From: Desulfuromonas sp. SDB
GTDB lineage: Bacteria; SDB-A
Assembly: GCA_001412365.1 (NCBI GenBank)
Contig: LKUE01000205.1
Span: forward strand, 1-12,551
Direction of reading: 5' to 3'
Length of the DNA: 12,551 bases
The translations under genes and the position numbers were made by a program. Shown here one piece after another: positions 3,590 through 8,440 of the stretch (position 1 is its first letter; the number at the start of each line of letters is the position of its first letter). The notes below the pieces were generated by a model. It was not told the origin of the DNA and made no database searches. It worked only from the letters and a program-made list of their open reading frames with translations.

Positions 3590-4441
3590 TTAATTTTGTT
3601 TAATAATTGAATAAATAATACTGGTGGGATCAGTTAATTCCTTTAACTCCTGCCAGCTAAAATCAAGTTGAGTGTAACCGGCGGCATAGCAGGCAATTTC
3701 ATAGGGATTGTACAGGAAATGCATGCCGGTTGAATCAAAGTAAAAATTATGGTTTAGGTAAAAACTATCCTGATCAAACCAGAATCCGAAATCATTTATA
3801 TTGGTATCCGGAGGTATACTGTGCAGTTCCCGGAATTTTTTCTCCCCTAATTCATTTAATTCAGCTAAGCCCTGATTATTGAAAATATTCTGCAAAATCA
3901 AGCTATCCCCGGATTCCAGGTTGAAATTTAAATAACGGGTGCCGTGGGAAGGATGAGCTCCTCCTAGAAATGAAAAATAATGTATGCCCAAGGAGAGCAG
4001 ATAATCAGCATTGTAGGTTACAGTCAAAGTTCTTTGGTCAAACCATCCGGATTGCAACTTCATTTCCGGATTTTGCTCTATGGTTTCATTGTACTGCTGG
4101 ACAAAGTATTCAAAATAATCGTCAAAACTTATACTGTCTGAAAATACTGCTTTAGCCACCAATGCATCAATGTCTCCAGCACTGCCCAAATTGGGTGCCT
4201 CGGTTATATTCAACAATTCAAATCTCACATTAATAACAGTGTCAGTTATTCTGCTTAAATAAATATTACTATCTGCATCAAAACTATCACTGCTGATTAT
4301 TTGATCTTCGGTTCGGATAACAAAATCCTGATAAACTTCAATATTGTAAATAGCTGAATCACCGTACTGTTCGCCAGAAATTACAGTGGGGAATGCGGTC
4401 AAAGCCAATCCCAAGATTACCGTAAATAAATATATTTTCAT
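3590..4441 (-). CDS. Exported DUF3298 (RsiV-type) domain protein
   Basis: This 283-residue protein has a signal peptide (residues 1-23, likely cut near IS-G/EQ) and no lipobox cysteine, so it is probably periplasmic. The C-terminal half is a DUF3298 domain: SFLGGAHP (G160-P164), then TRYLNFNLESGD, and near the end a LYNPYEIACYAAG segment. The region before it matches the usual N-terminal partner of this domain (DUF4163-like). DUF3298 is known from the lysozyme-binding anti-sigma factor RsiV and from peptidoglycan deacetylase PdaC. No sigma factor or deacetylase is present here, so the role is open. It is clearly paralogous to the protein at 5181-6017 and sits third in the four-gene operon. 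The SD is weak. Confidence 0.85.
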   Translation of the reverse strand: MKIYLFTVILGLALTAFPTVISGEQYGDSAIYNIEVYQDFVIRTEDQIISSDSFDADSNIYLSRITDTVINVRFELLNITEAPNLGSAGDIDALVAKAVFSDSISFDDYFEYFVQQYNETIEQNPEMKLQSGWFDQRTLTVTYNADYLLSLGIHYFSFLGGAHPSHGTRYLNFNLESGDSLILQNIFNNQGLAELNELGEKKFRELHSIPPDTNINDFGFWFDQDSFYLNHNFYFDSTGMHFLYNPYEIACYAAGYTQLDFSWQELKELTDPTSIIYSIIKQN

Positions 4442-4459: not shown

Positions 4460-5170
4460 TTAATCTAATTTTTCCAAAATTCCGGTCAAACTTAAATTTT
4501 TTACAATTACCGGATTTCCCCGGTAATCAATTTTACCTACTCCACTGATATTGGCATACAGGGAATCACTAACCTGGACCAGACAATGTCCGGATCCTTT
4601 AATATCACAGTGAGTTATACTGGTAACCAGATCCACTGAATTCACCTCTGCTGATCCCTGGATAGTGATGTGCTGAAGATTTGCCTGACCAGTATAAGTT
4701 ACCGAGGCTGATCCGGAGATATCTGTGGATATCTGCTGGACATTGACATCAACTTTAACATTGGCGGAGCCACATATATTGAATGTGATTTGGGGAAATG
4801 AAAGTTGATTTTCACTGGATACTTCTGCTGAACCGATAATTTCACAATATTCCAGGTTATCTGAACTGATGTAAACAGTGGGTTCGGTGGAAAAATTCAC
4901 TGTTCCCCCCGCATCTATGTACAGAGTATCATTTTCTACCCGGGTTTTAACTTGTTCTAAGAGGTTATCATCGGTTTCCACACTTAAATACTGATTTATA
5001 TCATGTTTTAAAATTAAATTAATTCCGCCCTGGATAATGATGTATTTAAAAGAAGGCAGTCCCCTTTCATCAACTACAATATTTCCAGAACCAATTAACG
5101 TCTCTGCCCAGATGTTTAAGGTCAAACCTATCAATATGATTATCACCCCGATGCATTTAATCTTATTCAT
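4460..5170 (-). CDS. Exported GIN-domain (DUF2807) protein
   Basis: This 236-residue protein has a signal peptide (1-22, cut near IWA/ET). The mature part starts with GSGN (27-30) and shows the GIN/DUF2807 pattern: an early VETDDNLLEQV segment, then evenly spaced GSAEV, GSANV, GSASV, GSAEV and GSG turns. These suggest a right-handed beta-solenoid. GIN-domain proteins are common envelope proteins in Bacteroidetes and relatives; the family was named a putative autotransporter adhesin head, but function is poorly known. It is the second gene of the operon. The SD AGGAGG (5177-5182) lies 6 nt before the ATG and shares two bases with the stop codon of the preceding gene, so translation is probably coupled. 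Confidence 0.87.
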   Translation of the reverse strand: MNKIKCIGVIIILIGLTLNIWAETLIGSGNIVVDERGLPSFKYIIIQGGINLILKHDINQYLSVETDDNLLEQVKTRVENDTLYIDAGGTVNFSTEPTVYISSDNLEYCEIIGSAEVSSENQLSFPQITFNICGSANVKVDVNVQQISTDISGSASVTYTGQANLQHITIQGSAEVNSVDLVTSITHCDIKGSGHCLVQVSDSLYANISGVGKIDYRGNPVIVKNLSLTGILEKLD

Positions 5171-5180
5171 AGAAAACCTC

Positions 5181-6017
5181 CTAGTTAGTTATTGGATATA
5201 AAATATTATCTTGATCAATTAAATCAACAATCAGTTCGTAGGGGATATGAAGTTCGGTTGGACCGCTGGAATAAGGAGCAATTTCATAGGAATTGTAATA
5301 AAAAGTTAATCCTTGATCATCAATGAAAAAATTTTCAGTTAGATAAAATTCATCATCGGGAAACCAGAAATCATAATCGGAAAAATTTTCATCGGGTCTT
5401 ATTCCGTACATATCCCTGAATAGATTTTCACCAGTGGTTTGCAGTTTTTTTGTTTCCCGGTAGGAGAATAAATACTGTAGATCAATAACCTCTCCAGTTT
5501 GTATGTCGAAGTTATAGTAGTCTGTCCATCCATTGGGATGAGCTCCTCCGGTGAAAGAGTAAAAGTTGCAGCCCACCGAAAAAATATTATGGTAGTTGTA
5601 GATCACTTCCACCGTTCTTTGATCCTCCCATCCAATATTTAAAGGATCGTCTGCATTTGATTCATAATATAGGCGATATTCAGTGATAAAACTGTCCATG
5701 AGCTGCTGATAACTTTCAAAACCCTGGCTGTAAATCATAATATCTTCCAGCTGTTCGTTTATTGCATCCCTGATCCGGGGGGATGGTGCTTTGGTTATTT
5801 CTATATAAGTGATTTCAATTACCGCCCCTGGATCATTTTCTGAATAAGCATAACTCTGGTTAATGTATTCAGATTGAAATTCCAATGAACTAATTTGATC
5901 GGATTCAAGCCGGGATTTGCTGTTTTGATTATCAACAGGCCAGCAGCTTAACAGGACCGAAATAGTAATGAAAACCGGAAGAACCAGTTTCAAGGACGGA
6001 GTATGTATTTTTATCAT
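5181..6017 (-). CDS. DUF3298 (RsiV-type) lipoprotein
   Basis: This 278-residue protein is the first gene of the operon. The N-terminus is a signal sequence ending in VLLSC, a lipobox with Cys25 as the probable lipidated residue, so the product should be membrane anchored. The DUF3298 domain shows FTGGAHP (G157-P161), DYYNFDIQTGE and, near the end, FYYNSYEIAPYSSGPTEL. It is paralogous to the 283-residue protein two genes downstream; both keep the same domain order and GGAHP motif but differ in export signal. The start is supported by GGAGG at 6022-6026, 4 nt before ATG. Known DUF3298 proteins bind or act on cell-wall ligands such as lysozyme or peptidoglycan. A ligand-binding role here is inference. 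Confidence 0.85.
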   Translation of the reverse strand: MIKIHTPSLKLVLPVFITISVLLSCWPVDNQNSKSRLESDQISSLEFQSEYINQSYAYSENDPGAVIEITYIEITKAPSPRIRDAINEQLEDIMIYSQGFESYQQLMDSFITEYRLYYESNADDPLNIGWEDQRTVEVIYNYHNIFSVGCNFYSFTGGAHPNGWTDYYNFDIQTGEVIDLQYLFSYRETKKLQTTGENLFRDMYGIRPDENFSDYDFWFPDDEFYLTENFFIDDQGLTFYYNSYEIAPYSSGPTELHIPYELIVDLIDQDNILYPITN

Positions 6018-6141: not shown

Positions 6142-7050
6142 ATGATGGATTCAAATACATATTCATTTAATGATCTCGTAGAAATTTCGCTTTCTCCCAC
6201 CCTGGAAGAAGAAATAAAAAAAGCTTCGGTAATTATTTCTGAGATGAATTTATCAAAAACAACCCGTCCGGTTTATGATAGAAACATTCGGCCAATAAAA
6301 AGATTATTTAAAACTTATTATGAAAACAGGGAGGAGTTGAAGAGAAAGGCAGCTAAACTCCCCATCCATACTTTCATTATTCTGAAGTTTTTGAAAACAA
6401 AAATAAATGAATATAAAATAAAGCCGGAAATGTTCATTGATCAAATTGACCGGGAAGTTGCTGAAAAGACATTGTCTCATCTGGAAGATTTATTGAGTCA
6501 TCCTCCTATTCCTTTAAATCCCAATGATCTAAAAAAAGCCGGTTTGGTGGTAAAATTCATTAATGAAATTCCCATGCTTCAATATGCGATTAAATTTAAA
6601 GAGGTACAGCGCTTTTTAATCAACACTCAATCTGAGGCTATCAGTTTAAATGAAAAATTTAAATATTATCTGATCCCCGGGATAGTCCTGTGCTTGTTAA
6701 CCCCTTTTTTTACTCCCTTCATTGTCATGCCTTTTGCTGAAAACAAGTCAGGATTGGGCATTCTGATGATTTTATTATTTCTGTTAGCTTTAGCTGCAGA
6801 TGTTTTTTTAGTTTTCACCGGGTTGAAAATTAACAATGAATATGTGGTTTTATCAGATAACCGCGATGACAAAGCCAGATTCATCAGATACAAAGAACAG
6901 TGGAATGAAGTGGTAAGTATATTTGGGAACCATGGATTAGATCGTTATAAATTTTTGTTGGAGGAAAGAACCAACCTTGTTGAAAAAATGCTGGTGGACA
7001 TAGGAGGCAAAGGTTTGTATCAACGGGTGTTTCAGTTTGAAAAAACTTGA
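6142..7050 (+). CDS. Two-TM membrane protein of unknown function
   Basis: This 302-residue protein is not recognised as any family. It has no signal peptide. Residues 1-170 are charged and mostly helical-looking, rich in Lys and Glu. Two hydrophobic segments follow at about 176-198 and 206-229, joined by a very short loop (about AENKSG), which makes a helical hairpin. Residues 230-302 are again charged. The simplest topology is both ends in the cytoplasm with a small external turn. ATG codons stand at 6142 and 6145, with no SD before either. It is divergent from the envelope operon and shares a 124-bp control region with it. The next promoter overlaps its stop codon, so it appears to be monocistronic. 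Confidence 0.75.
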   Translation: MMDSNTYSFNDLVEISLSPTLEEEIKKASVIISEMNLSKTTRPVYDRNIRPIKRLFKTYYENREELKRKAAKLPIHTFIILKFLKTKINEYKIKPEMFIDQIDREVAEKTLSHLEDLLSHPPIPLNPNDLKKAGLVVKFINEIPMLQYAIKFKEVQRFLINTQSEAISLNEKFKYYLIPGIVLCLLTPFFTPFIVMPFAENKSGLGILMILLFLLALAADVFLVFTGLKINNEYVVLSDNRDDKARFIRYKEQWNEVVSIFGNHGLDRYKFLLEERTNLVEKMLVDIGGKGLYQRVFQFEKT

Positions 7051-7075
7051 CCTTGATTGAAGTTGAAATTATAAA
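7047..7075 (+). promoter_or_regulatory. Promoter of the rsgA leader transcript
   Basis: TTGACC (7047-7052), 17 bp, TATAAA (7070-7075) is one of the best sigma-70-like matches in the window. It overlaps the stop codon of the preceding gene. The start site would be near 7082, about 20 nt before the first small ORF of the leader. Confidence 0.55.
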
Positions 7076-7103
7076 ATAGTATTGCATTTCAAGGAGGTAA
7101 CCT

Positions 7104-7148
7104 ATGAGTAAAATAAACAGAACAGTACAGGAGTTAAACCAGCTCTAA
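7104..7148 (+). CDS. Candidate 14-residue leader peptide 1
   Basis: The short ORF encodes MSKINRTVQELNQL. It has the strongest SD in the window: AAGGAGGT at 7091-7098, with 6 nt from AGGAGG to ATG, and a promoter just upstream. Its stop codon (7146-7148) lies inside segment 1 of the alternating hairpins at 7143-7222, the usual geometry of a translated attenuator. The peptide has no run of one amino acid that would point to a sensed amino acid. A free-standing micro-protein or a decayed gene start is also possible. Confidence 0.45.
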   Translation: MSKINRTVQELNQL

Positions 7149-7222
7149 AGGGTTGCCTTTTCTTTAATTCTCCAAAAATCTAAAAAATCCCGCATTCCTT
7201 TAGAGTAGTAAAAAAACTCTAA
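7143..7222 (+). promoter_or_regulatory. Mutually exclusive hairpins between leader ORFs (possible attenuator)
   Basis: Four segments can pair in competing ways. Segment 1 is CTCTAAAGG (7143-7151), segment 2 CCTTT (7156-7160), segment 3 CCTTTAGAG extending to T7206 (7197-7206), and segment 4 ACTCTAA (7216-7222). Segments 1 and 2 make a short 5-bp hairpin followed by TCTTT, a weak terminator shape. Segments 1 and 3 make a perfect 9-bp stem. Segments 3 and 4 make a perfect 7-bp hairpin (7200-7206 with 7216-7222) ending 2 nt before the SD of the second small ORF. A ribosome finishing leader peptide 1 would cover segment 1 and favour the 3-4 stem. I recognise no known riboswitch class. Confidence 0.4.
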
Positions 7223-7235
7223 CCGGAGGTGCGCT

Positions 7236-7283
7236 ATGATTGTGTTTATTATTCTGAAGCAATTTGAAATTTTAGAAAACTAG
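7236..7283 (+). CDS. Candidate 15-residue leader peptide 2
   Basis: The short ORF encodes MIVFIILKQFEILEN, a hydrophobic N-terminus with a charged end. The SD GGAGG at 7225-7229 is 6 nt from the ATG, an ideal distance. The ORF ends 26 nt before the rsgA start, so it is on the same transcript. It could couple translation to rsgA, act as a second leader, or be a small membrane peptide. Only the SD and position support it. Confidence 0.4.
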   Translation: MIVFIILKQFEILEN

Positions 7284-7309
7284 AACAAATTAATTTTTGG
7301 AGTTTATAA

Positions 7310-8440
7310 ATGGATTTAAGCAATTTAAATAGTTACGGATTGACTGCTGATTTTCTGCAGGAATATGAAAACAGTTTAAAACAGATCCCTGATTGTTCAC
7401 CAGATGAATATCACTTGGCTAGAGTGACTTCAGTGCATAGAGGACTTTGTAAAATTGTAGAACCGGGAGGTGAAAAATCTGCTTATTTCAGCGCCAAAGG
7501 TCAGATAGAAAATGATAAGTCGGTTCAATTTCCGGCAGTAGGCGACTGGGTGGTTGTTGAATGTAACTACAATCATGCTACCGGAACCATTAGGAAAATA
7601 TTGCCCAGGACCAGTAAATTTTCCCGCAATATTTTTGATCGTAAACGACTCAAATGCAAAGCTGAAGAACAGGTAATTGCTGCAAATATTGATAAAACCT
7701 TTGTAGTTAATGCTTTAAATCATGATTTTAATACCAGCCGAATGGAAAGATATCTAACCATAGTATGGGATAGTGGATCGGTGCCCTATTTAATTTTAAA
7801 TAAAGCTGATCTATGTGGAGATGTTGAAGAAAAATTAGAGCAGGTAAAGGAAATCAGCTTTGGCTTGGAGGTGATTGTAACCAGTGCAACTGAGGACAGG
7901 GGGATTGAGCAGTTGAACAGTTGCATAAAACTTGGGGAAACCTGTATATTTTTGGGTTCTTCGGGGGTGGGAAAATCAAGCTTGATAAATCTCTTACTGA
8001 GTAAACCCCGGATCAAAGTAGAGGAAACCTCTGCCTACAGGGACAGAGGAAAACATACCACTACTTCCAGGTCAATGTATTTATTGCCCAGTGGAGGTTT
8101 GGTAATTGACACCCCCGGACTGAGAGGAATTCAATTGTGGACAGGTAATGCTGATTTAGGCGAAATATTTGCCGACATTGAGGAATTGCAGTCAAGGTGC
8201 AAATTTTCCAATTGTACCCATCAATCTGAGTCCGGTTGTGCAGTTCTTCAAGCTATTGAAACAGGGGATTTAACTTATAAGAGACTGCAGAACTACTTCA
8301 AAATGCAGCGGGAATTAAACTACATCCAGAGAAGAGCTGCTAAAAAAGCAGATCGAAAGCCTAGAATCAGCTATAAGCAGAAAATGAAGAATAAAACCAA
8401 GCACAAACATTATTTAAGATCTTATTACCCTGAATCCTGA
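7310..8440 (+). CDS. rsgA: Ribosome small-subunit-dependent GTPase A (RsgA/YjeQ family)
   Basis: RsgA is a circularly permuted GTPase that acts in late 30S subunit assembly, releasing assembly factors from the maturing particle. The 376-residue protein has an OB-fold region (about 36-100, with PAVGDWV at 75-81). The GTPase motifs follow in permuted order: NKAD (164-167), TSA (about 189-191), P-loop GSSGVGKS (216-223), RGKHTTT and DTPG (267-270). A zinc knuckle follows with C297, C302, H304 and C310. The C-terminus is very basic, as suits rRNA binding. It is somewhat longer than the usual 300-350 residues and starts with an L-x-x-YGL segment typical of the longer RsgA branch also found in Firmicutes and Bacteroidetes. 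The start is supported by GGAG at 7299-7302, 7 nt before ATG. It follows the leader region with two small ORFs. Confidence 0.95.
   Translation: MDLSNLNSYGLTADFLQEYENSLKQIPDCSPDEYHLARVTSVHRGLCKIVEPGGEKSAYFSAKGQIENDKSVQFPAVGDWVVVECNYNHATGTIRKILPRTSKFSRNIFDRKRLKCKAEEQVIAANIDKTFVVNALNHDFNTSRMERYLTIVWDSGSVPYLILNKADLCGDVEEKLEQVKEISFGLEVIVTSATEDRGIEQLNSCIKLGETCIFLGSSGVGKSSLINLLLSKPRIKVEETSAYRDRGKHTTTSRSMYLLPSGGLVIDTPGLRGIQLWTGNADLGEIFADIEELQSRCKFSNCTHQSESGCAVLQAIETGDLTYKRLQNYFKMQRELNYIQRRAAKKADRKPRISYKQKMKNKTKHKHYLRSYYPES

Follow-up and report, generated by a model that had tools for sequence, protein, structure and literature searches.

A candidate two-peptide translational attenuator ahead of a long-type rsgA gene, with leader ORFs of similar layout in many bacterial lineages

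Introduction

Attenuators built on leader ORFs are typically found on genes that respond to stalled ribosomes, and in the ermA type of translational attenuator two leader peptides take part. The GTPase RsgA acts in 30S maturation. Among the described systems closest to the one presented here, the Listeria gene hflXr (lmo0762) has a leader, rli80, with a 14-codon leader ORF, alternative RNA folds, a terminator and an RLR motif, and is drug-induced (PMC6310831). In Bacilli, the leaders of vmlR and other ARE-ABCF genes, which encode ribosome-protecting factors, act by uORF-mediated attenuation of transcription and translation (PMC9226507, PMC10201436). In Streptomyces coelicolor the RsgA paralog SCO6149 is activated by WblC and tetracycline, whereas SCO5211 is not, and WblC, the inducer of SCO6149, is itself under uORF attenuation (PMC7157823). 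Our search of open-licence papers found no description of rsgA joined with a leader ORF of its own, and an rsgA gene with such a switch seems to be previously undescribed.

Here we analyse the gap ahead of rsgA in a 12,551-nt contig of Desulfuromonas sp. SDB (LKUE01000205.1; hereafter the window), where a first-pass annotation had proposed a leader-peptide attenuator. From sequence analysis we favour, with a probability of roughly 0.7, a ribosome-mediated, erm-like translational attenuator with two leader ORFs that would be switched on when a ribosome stalls early in the first of them.

Results

Two short ORFs with strong Shine-Dalgarno sequences precede rsgA

The features of the gap are collected in Table 1. 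The near-consensus promoter claimed by the first-pass annotation is present, with its -35 box overlapping the stop codon of the upstream gene (7048-7050). Our promoter scan gave no match for the TTGACC box because it requires a T at position 6; since the window holds six sites of the 10/12 type, both strands counted, this promoter by itself is weak evidence.

Table 1. Features of the rsgA leader region (positions in the window).
Feature	Position	Strand	Basis and details
Putative promoter, sigma-70-like, TTGACC-17-TATAAA	7047..7075	+	sequence, 10/12 matches; -35 TTGACC 7047-7052, spacer 17 nt, -10 TATAAA 7070-7075
Shine-Dalgarno (SD) of ORF1, AAGGAGGT	7091..7098	+	8-nt match, the window's best
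Segment 1 (SD1)	7092-7103	+	pairs with 7150-7161
Candidate leader ORF1, MSKINRTVQELNQL, 14 codons + stop	7104..7148	+	sequence, SD, architecture common to relatives; ATG 7104, stop codon 7146-7148
Segment 2, across the ORF1 stop	7142..7161	+	shuffle tests, duplex energies, swapped-leader ranking; 7150-7161 partners SD1, 7142-7151 partners segment 3
Anti-SD segment CTCCAAAAAT	7170..7179	+	inverted repeat of 7293-7302, perfect over 10 bp, p=0.01
Segment 3, predicted partner of segment 2 (ON) or segment 4 (OFF)	7191..7206	+	folding
Segment 4, holds SD2	7216..7233	+	hairpin 7191-7233, -13.9 kcal/mol; SD2 GGAGGTG 7225-7231
Candidate leader ORF2, MIVFIILKQFEILEN, 15 codons + stop	7236..7283	+	sequence, 7-nt SD; ATG 7236, stop codon 7281-7283
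rsgA ribosome binding site	7293..7309	+	sequence, folding; GGAG 7299-7302 within stem 7293-7302
rsgA, long type, 376 aa	7310..8440	+	PF03193, TIGR00157, tree

The two short ORFs that had been described are also borne out, the first behind the best SD of the window and the second behind an ideal one, with its end 26 nt before the rsgA ATG. Theirs are the only + strand ATGs in the window with an SD match of at least 7 nt, and a single gene start on the - strand has a match of 7. In the whole 3.14-Mb genome (in which the 16S rRNA match ends at position 902, short of the 16S 3' end), AAGGAGGT stands 4-8 nt ahead of an ATG at 32 sites. Among the 30 of these sites that were retrieved, four open ORFs of at most 30 codons, ORF1 being one, and the majority start genes of ordinary length. 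Because so few of the retrieved sites open short ORFs, this SD appears to mark real starts, and from its genome-wide behaviour the start of ORF1 is very likely real.

On inspection both peptides lack an amino-acid run, as the first-pass annotation had noted. With no such codon run, and no Rfam match at the gathering threshold in the window, we dropped the idea of an amino-acid-sensing leader or T-box; we likewise abandoned the possibility that ORF2, whose peptide is hydrophobic, encodes a type I toxin, finding no feature to support it. The leader gap has no close DNA relatives elsewhere in its own genome or in plasmids. Elsewhere in the window, two neighbouring - strand ORFs (3590-4441 and 5181-6017) share a GGAHP-containing pattern and look like paralogs by eye, with a secreted-looking ORF (4460-5170) between them.

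The leader can form mutually exclusive stems

Four competing pairing segments lie where they had been proposed, forming the mutually exclusive stems 1-2, 2-3 and 3-4; to the earlier pairings we add the SD1 stem (1-2) and a stem over the rsgA SD. Helices were judged against dinucleotide shuffles, in which both the SD1 helix (7092-7103 : 7150-7161; 12 bp with G-U; 0/500 shuffles) and the 2-3 helix (7143-7151 : 7197-7205; 9 bp, all Watson-Crick; p=0.0065) are rare. The latter contains the ORF1 stop codon, in agreement with the claim that this codon lies inside a switching segment, and its extended form of 10 bp, including one G-U, reaches -15.5 kcal/mol. A third helix, of 10 bp (7170-7179 : 7293-7302), covers the GGAG of rsgA, and it should be noted that a p of about 0.01 for such single-sequence stems follows post-hoc choice. 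The hairpin 7191-7233 buries SD2, with stem 3-4 and the SD2 pairing individually not unusual. The fold of 7085-7312 as a whole has a z of -2.5, and alternative folds of nearly equal stability exist.

The first-pass annotation held that ribosome position would decide between the stems it had numbered 1-3 and 3-4 (2-3 and 3-4 here), and constrained folding, the figures of which vary with transcript length, agrees. The 2-3 stem accounts for a share of 0.30-0.99 (37 C, just after SD2 has been made) when the ribosome occupies codons 1-7 of ORF1; when it occupies codons 8-15, the hairpin over SD2 is essentially always present, and the choice flips at codon 7-8. In the modelled ‘on’ state SD2 is freed incompletely and takes other partners, its opening costing 3-10 kcal/mol with no clean fall, while the opening cost of the rsgA SD drops when a ribosome sits at the ORF2 stop. 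The folding model thus supports the choice of stems, not the output.

The downstream gene encodes a long type of RsgA

The product of the window gene matches PF03193 (1.5e-48, 165 bits, cut-off 30) and TIGR00157 (180 bits, cut-off 100), and in our tree it groups with long RsgA proteins, which are split from canonical RsgA at 100/100 support. Proteins of this long type have about 350-375 aa, many with an LGW-like N-terminal motif, and in the 151 Bacilli genomes sampled RsgA scores are bimodal, at least 366 bits for the long type and at most 201 bits for the canonical one.

The source genome has two long-type rsgA genes, the window copy with a leader and a second copy (L030) without one. This second gene is seemingly split over two contig ends, L030 (G000:C53:30-734) and L051 (G000:C179:6-281), and the end of the L030 gene probably lies on C179. 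The nearest RsgA relatives by tree (99/97) belong to the phylum of genome G282, in which a conserved upstream ORF of 43 codons takes the place of the short leader. Given this difference and the 13 changes of leader label on the RsgA tree, leader and RsgA protein appear not to have been inherited together in a simple way. At five loci of that phylum (L158, L181, L183, L187, L188) the 43-codon ORF (MLKILEQCLKSDPEL...) has a GGGAGGA SD and stands directly upstream of long-type rsgA, and some of these ORFs are preceded by AAACCTGTGGCTTTTTT elements.

Long-type rsgA also occurs on the Lysinibacillus fusiformis plasmid pMGMM7 (L225), directly ahead of the fosfomycin-resistance gene fosM. Three further loci (L220, L221, L222), deposited as Listeria phage contigs or a 2.9-Mb Listeria plasmid, resemble the Listeria chromosome, and the rsgA carried there appears chromosomal.

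Leader ORFs recur ahead of long-type rsgA

A scan of the genome collection returned relatives mainly from Bacillota, none above 46% identity; the source phylum was represented in it by four genomes, with no relative at genus level. An ORF of 7-30 codons was counted as a leader if its SD was 5 nt or longer, or 6 nt or longer in a stricter version. Among Bacilli, whose sequences are related so that the counts are not independent, 58 of 65 long-type rsgA genes have such a leader, against 13.7 expected from shuffles and 7 on the reverse strand, and 35 of 65 (3.5 expected) have one by the stricter count. Several of the seven genes below the 5-nt threshold have, by eye, leaders with a weaker AAAGGGG-type SD. 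In other phyla the stricter count gave 12/30 (0.6 expected), and a fresh sample gave 7/28 (0.7 expected). Canonical rsgA of Bacilli, in contrast, has a leader in 4/25 cases at the 5-nt threshold and in 0/25 at the 6-nt one. It is an imperfect control because it often lies inside an operon, an objection met by the gaps ahead of neighbouring genes, where leaders were found in 0/29. The layout recurs ahead of long-type rsgA across many lineages.

The leaders themselves are diverse. In each of the three same-family genomes the leader ORF has 16 codons, its SD contains AGGAGGTG, and its peptide is a related one. The leader of Listeria rsgA is 18 codons long, with a GCUCC...GGAGC hairpin over the gene's SD; that of a cyanobacterial (Leptolyngbya) plasmid rsgA has 28 codons, with CCTCC right after the leader stop. 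Peptides differ between clades, with no single shared motif or amino-acid run, and two leader ORFs are peculiar to the window among the leaders compared, a second pair at L065 looking spurious. The only known RNA that Rfam found near the loci of relatives is a purine riboswitch downstream of one of them.

In one Bacilli family (L106, L109-L112, L114, L115) a GGAGG...CCTCC leader end adjoins the GAGGAGG SD of the gene, a layout that amounts to a compact three-segment switch, and the peptide is constant in length at 22 codons with a variable N-terminal half. Outside Bacilli, 5 of 18 leaders (L152, L174, L175, L179, L235), from five different families, begin with Met-Ile-Ala (ATGATTGCN), a coincidence with a chance of about 8e-7 given leader composition; Met-Ile-Ala is possibly a shared stalling motif. 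ORF2 of the window starts with the similar Met-Ile-Val.

Leaders pair better with their own sequences than with swapped ones

In 64 dereplicated leaders we compared own with swapped pairings. Pairing of the leader SD to the end of the leader averages -13.6 kcal/mol within the same leader, against -11.8 when swapped (z -5.9; 0/20000 permutations), and the rsgA SD likewise favours its own leader over others (z -5.8; 0/5000 permutations). The window ranks 0.03 and 0.08 in the two tests, among the better cases. Plain alignment and RNAalifold covariation performed poorly because the leaders cannot be aligned across genera, but one Bacilli group has compensatory changes in a helix (CTGAAAGGAG : CTCCTTTCAG versus CTTAAAGGAG : CTCCTTTAAG). 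With strong-SD leaders far above chance, own-sequence pairings, and canonical rsgA and neighbouring gaps largely free of such leaders, the proposal of a leader-peptide attenuator ahead of rsgA is well supported, and the data support in kind the view of rsgA as a recurrent target of ribosome-mediated attenuation.

Discussion

Our analysis allows a proposal for how the window leader may work. At rest, stems 1-2 and 3-4 would be paired, burying SD1 and SD2, and the stem 7170-7179 : 7293-7302 would bury the rsgA SD, so that little or no rsgA would be expressed. If ORF1 is translated unhindered, the ribosome would reach the stop codon inside segment 2, leaving 3-4 paired and the gene off. A ribosome stalled in the first half of ORF1 would instead occupy segment 1, leaving segment 2 free to pair with segment 3, which would release SD2 and permit translation of ORF2. 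The ribosome finishing ORF2, 26 nt before rsgA, could then open the rsgA SD and turn the gene on. Since the 2-3 pairing crosses the rsgA-SD stem, both locks would open. Translation of the two ORFs, stalling as the signal and the relay through ORF2 are what we infer from this arrangement.

The inducer would be a translation inhibitor or general ribosome distress, and probably the former, because the closest parallels, HflXr and SCO6149, are drug-induced. As the other rsgA of the genome lacks a leader, the product of the window gene may be a stress-inducible second RsgA. The main rival is housekeeping feedback, in which the leader senses general translation capacity or 30S supply and slow initiation or elongation raises rsgA. 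The first-pass annotation had taken this line, speaking of translation-capacity feedback and of a leader that senses ribosome activity; these were interpretations, and by analogy with HflXr (PMC6310831) and SCO6149 (PMC7157823) induction by an inhibitor is at least as likely. Feedback would suit a protein with a role in 30S maturation and leaders that differ between clades without a common peptide motif, and it fits better than a spare stress copy with the three same-family genomes (G001-G003), in each of which the leader-bearing rsgA is the only one. Against it, Bacilli have, like the source genome, a second rsgA without a leader, as is seen with drug-inducible paralogs, and the Streptomyces RsgA paralog is induced by tetracycline (PMC7157823). 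We regard housekeeping feedback as the less likely reading, though it has more in its favour than any other alternative.

Control of termination rather than of ribosome access is a good deal less probable for the window. Of 58 Bacilli leaders, 26 do have an intrinsic terminator downstream of the leader ORF and ahead of rsgA, which together with the SD hairpin of Listeria suggests that the switch of long-type rsgA exists in a transcriptional and a translational version. Between ORF1 and rsgA of the window, however, the only call is a weak 6-bp hairpin (7140-7155) over the end of ORF1, and the SDs of ORF2 and rsgA themselves lie within stems; by its sequence, the window leader belongs to the translational version. 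Still less probable is a reading without regulation, in which the two short ORFs simply encode small proteins and share an ordinary operon with rsgA. Both have gene-like SDs, and the conserved 43-codon upstream ORF of the G282 group could be such a gene, but the window ORFs have only 14 and 15 codons, their SDs pair with downstream segments, and elsewhere pairings are kept while leader peptides vary. Least probable of all is a chance set of fortuitous SDs and inverted repeats in an AT-rich gap, a reading to which the post-hoc choice of stems and the nearly as stable folds lend something, and against which stands the finding that many lineages have such leaders ahead of this one gene type, with controls that lack them.

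The preferred reading, an erm-like attenuator answering an early stall on ORF1, may have a wider meaning. We put forward tentatively, at a little under even odds, that long-type RsgA is a widespread ribosome factor, encoded in many phyla and on some plasmids, which is controlled by leader ORFs and inducible by translation inhibitors, with a two-peptide relay driving it in the window. If so, it would form an unrecognised antibiotic-response branch comparable with HflXr and the ARE-ABCF proteins. The presence of leaders on one RsgA type and not on canonical RsgA suggests a second, inducible 30S-maturation GTPase for times of blocked translation, and leaders of this kind may offer a rule for spotting stress-inducible copies of ribosome factors.

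Compared with known systems, the window most resembles the ermA type, with which it shares a pair of short leader ORFs behind strong SDs, segments that compete for pairing, burial of the SDs of ORF2 and of the gene, and a predicted switch of fold upon an early stall. It differs from erm in that the downstream gene encodes a 30S-assembly GTPase and not an rRNA methyltransferase, and its peptides are without known macrolide motifs. Listeria hflXr likewise places a ribosome-acting GTPase homolog under a short leader ORF with alternative folds, but hflXr relies on a terminator together with an RLR motif, and its product acts on the 70S ribosome, whereas the window has rsgA, predicted translational control and no RLR. 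The terminator-bearing leaders of long-type rsgA in Bacilli look similar to those of vmlR and other ARE-ABCF genes, with a different gene family and different leader sequences. Finally, SCO6149 is induced through a transcription factor and not by a leader of its own, yet in this case too a translation inhibitor induces a second RsgA and leaves the other copy uninduced.
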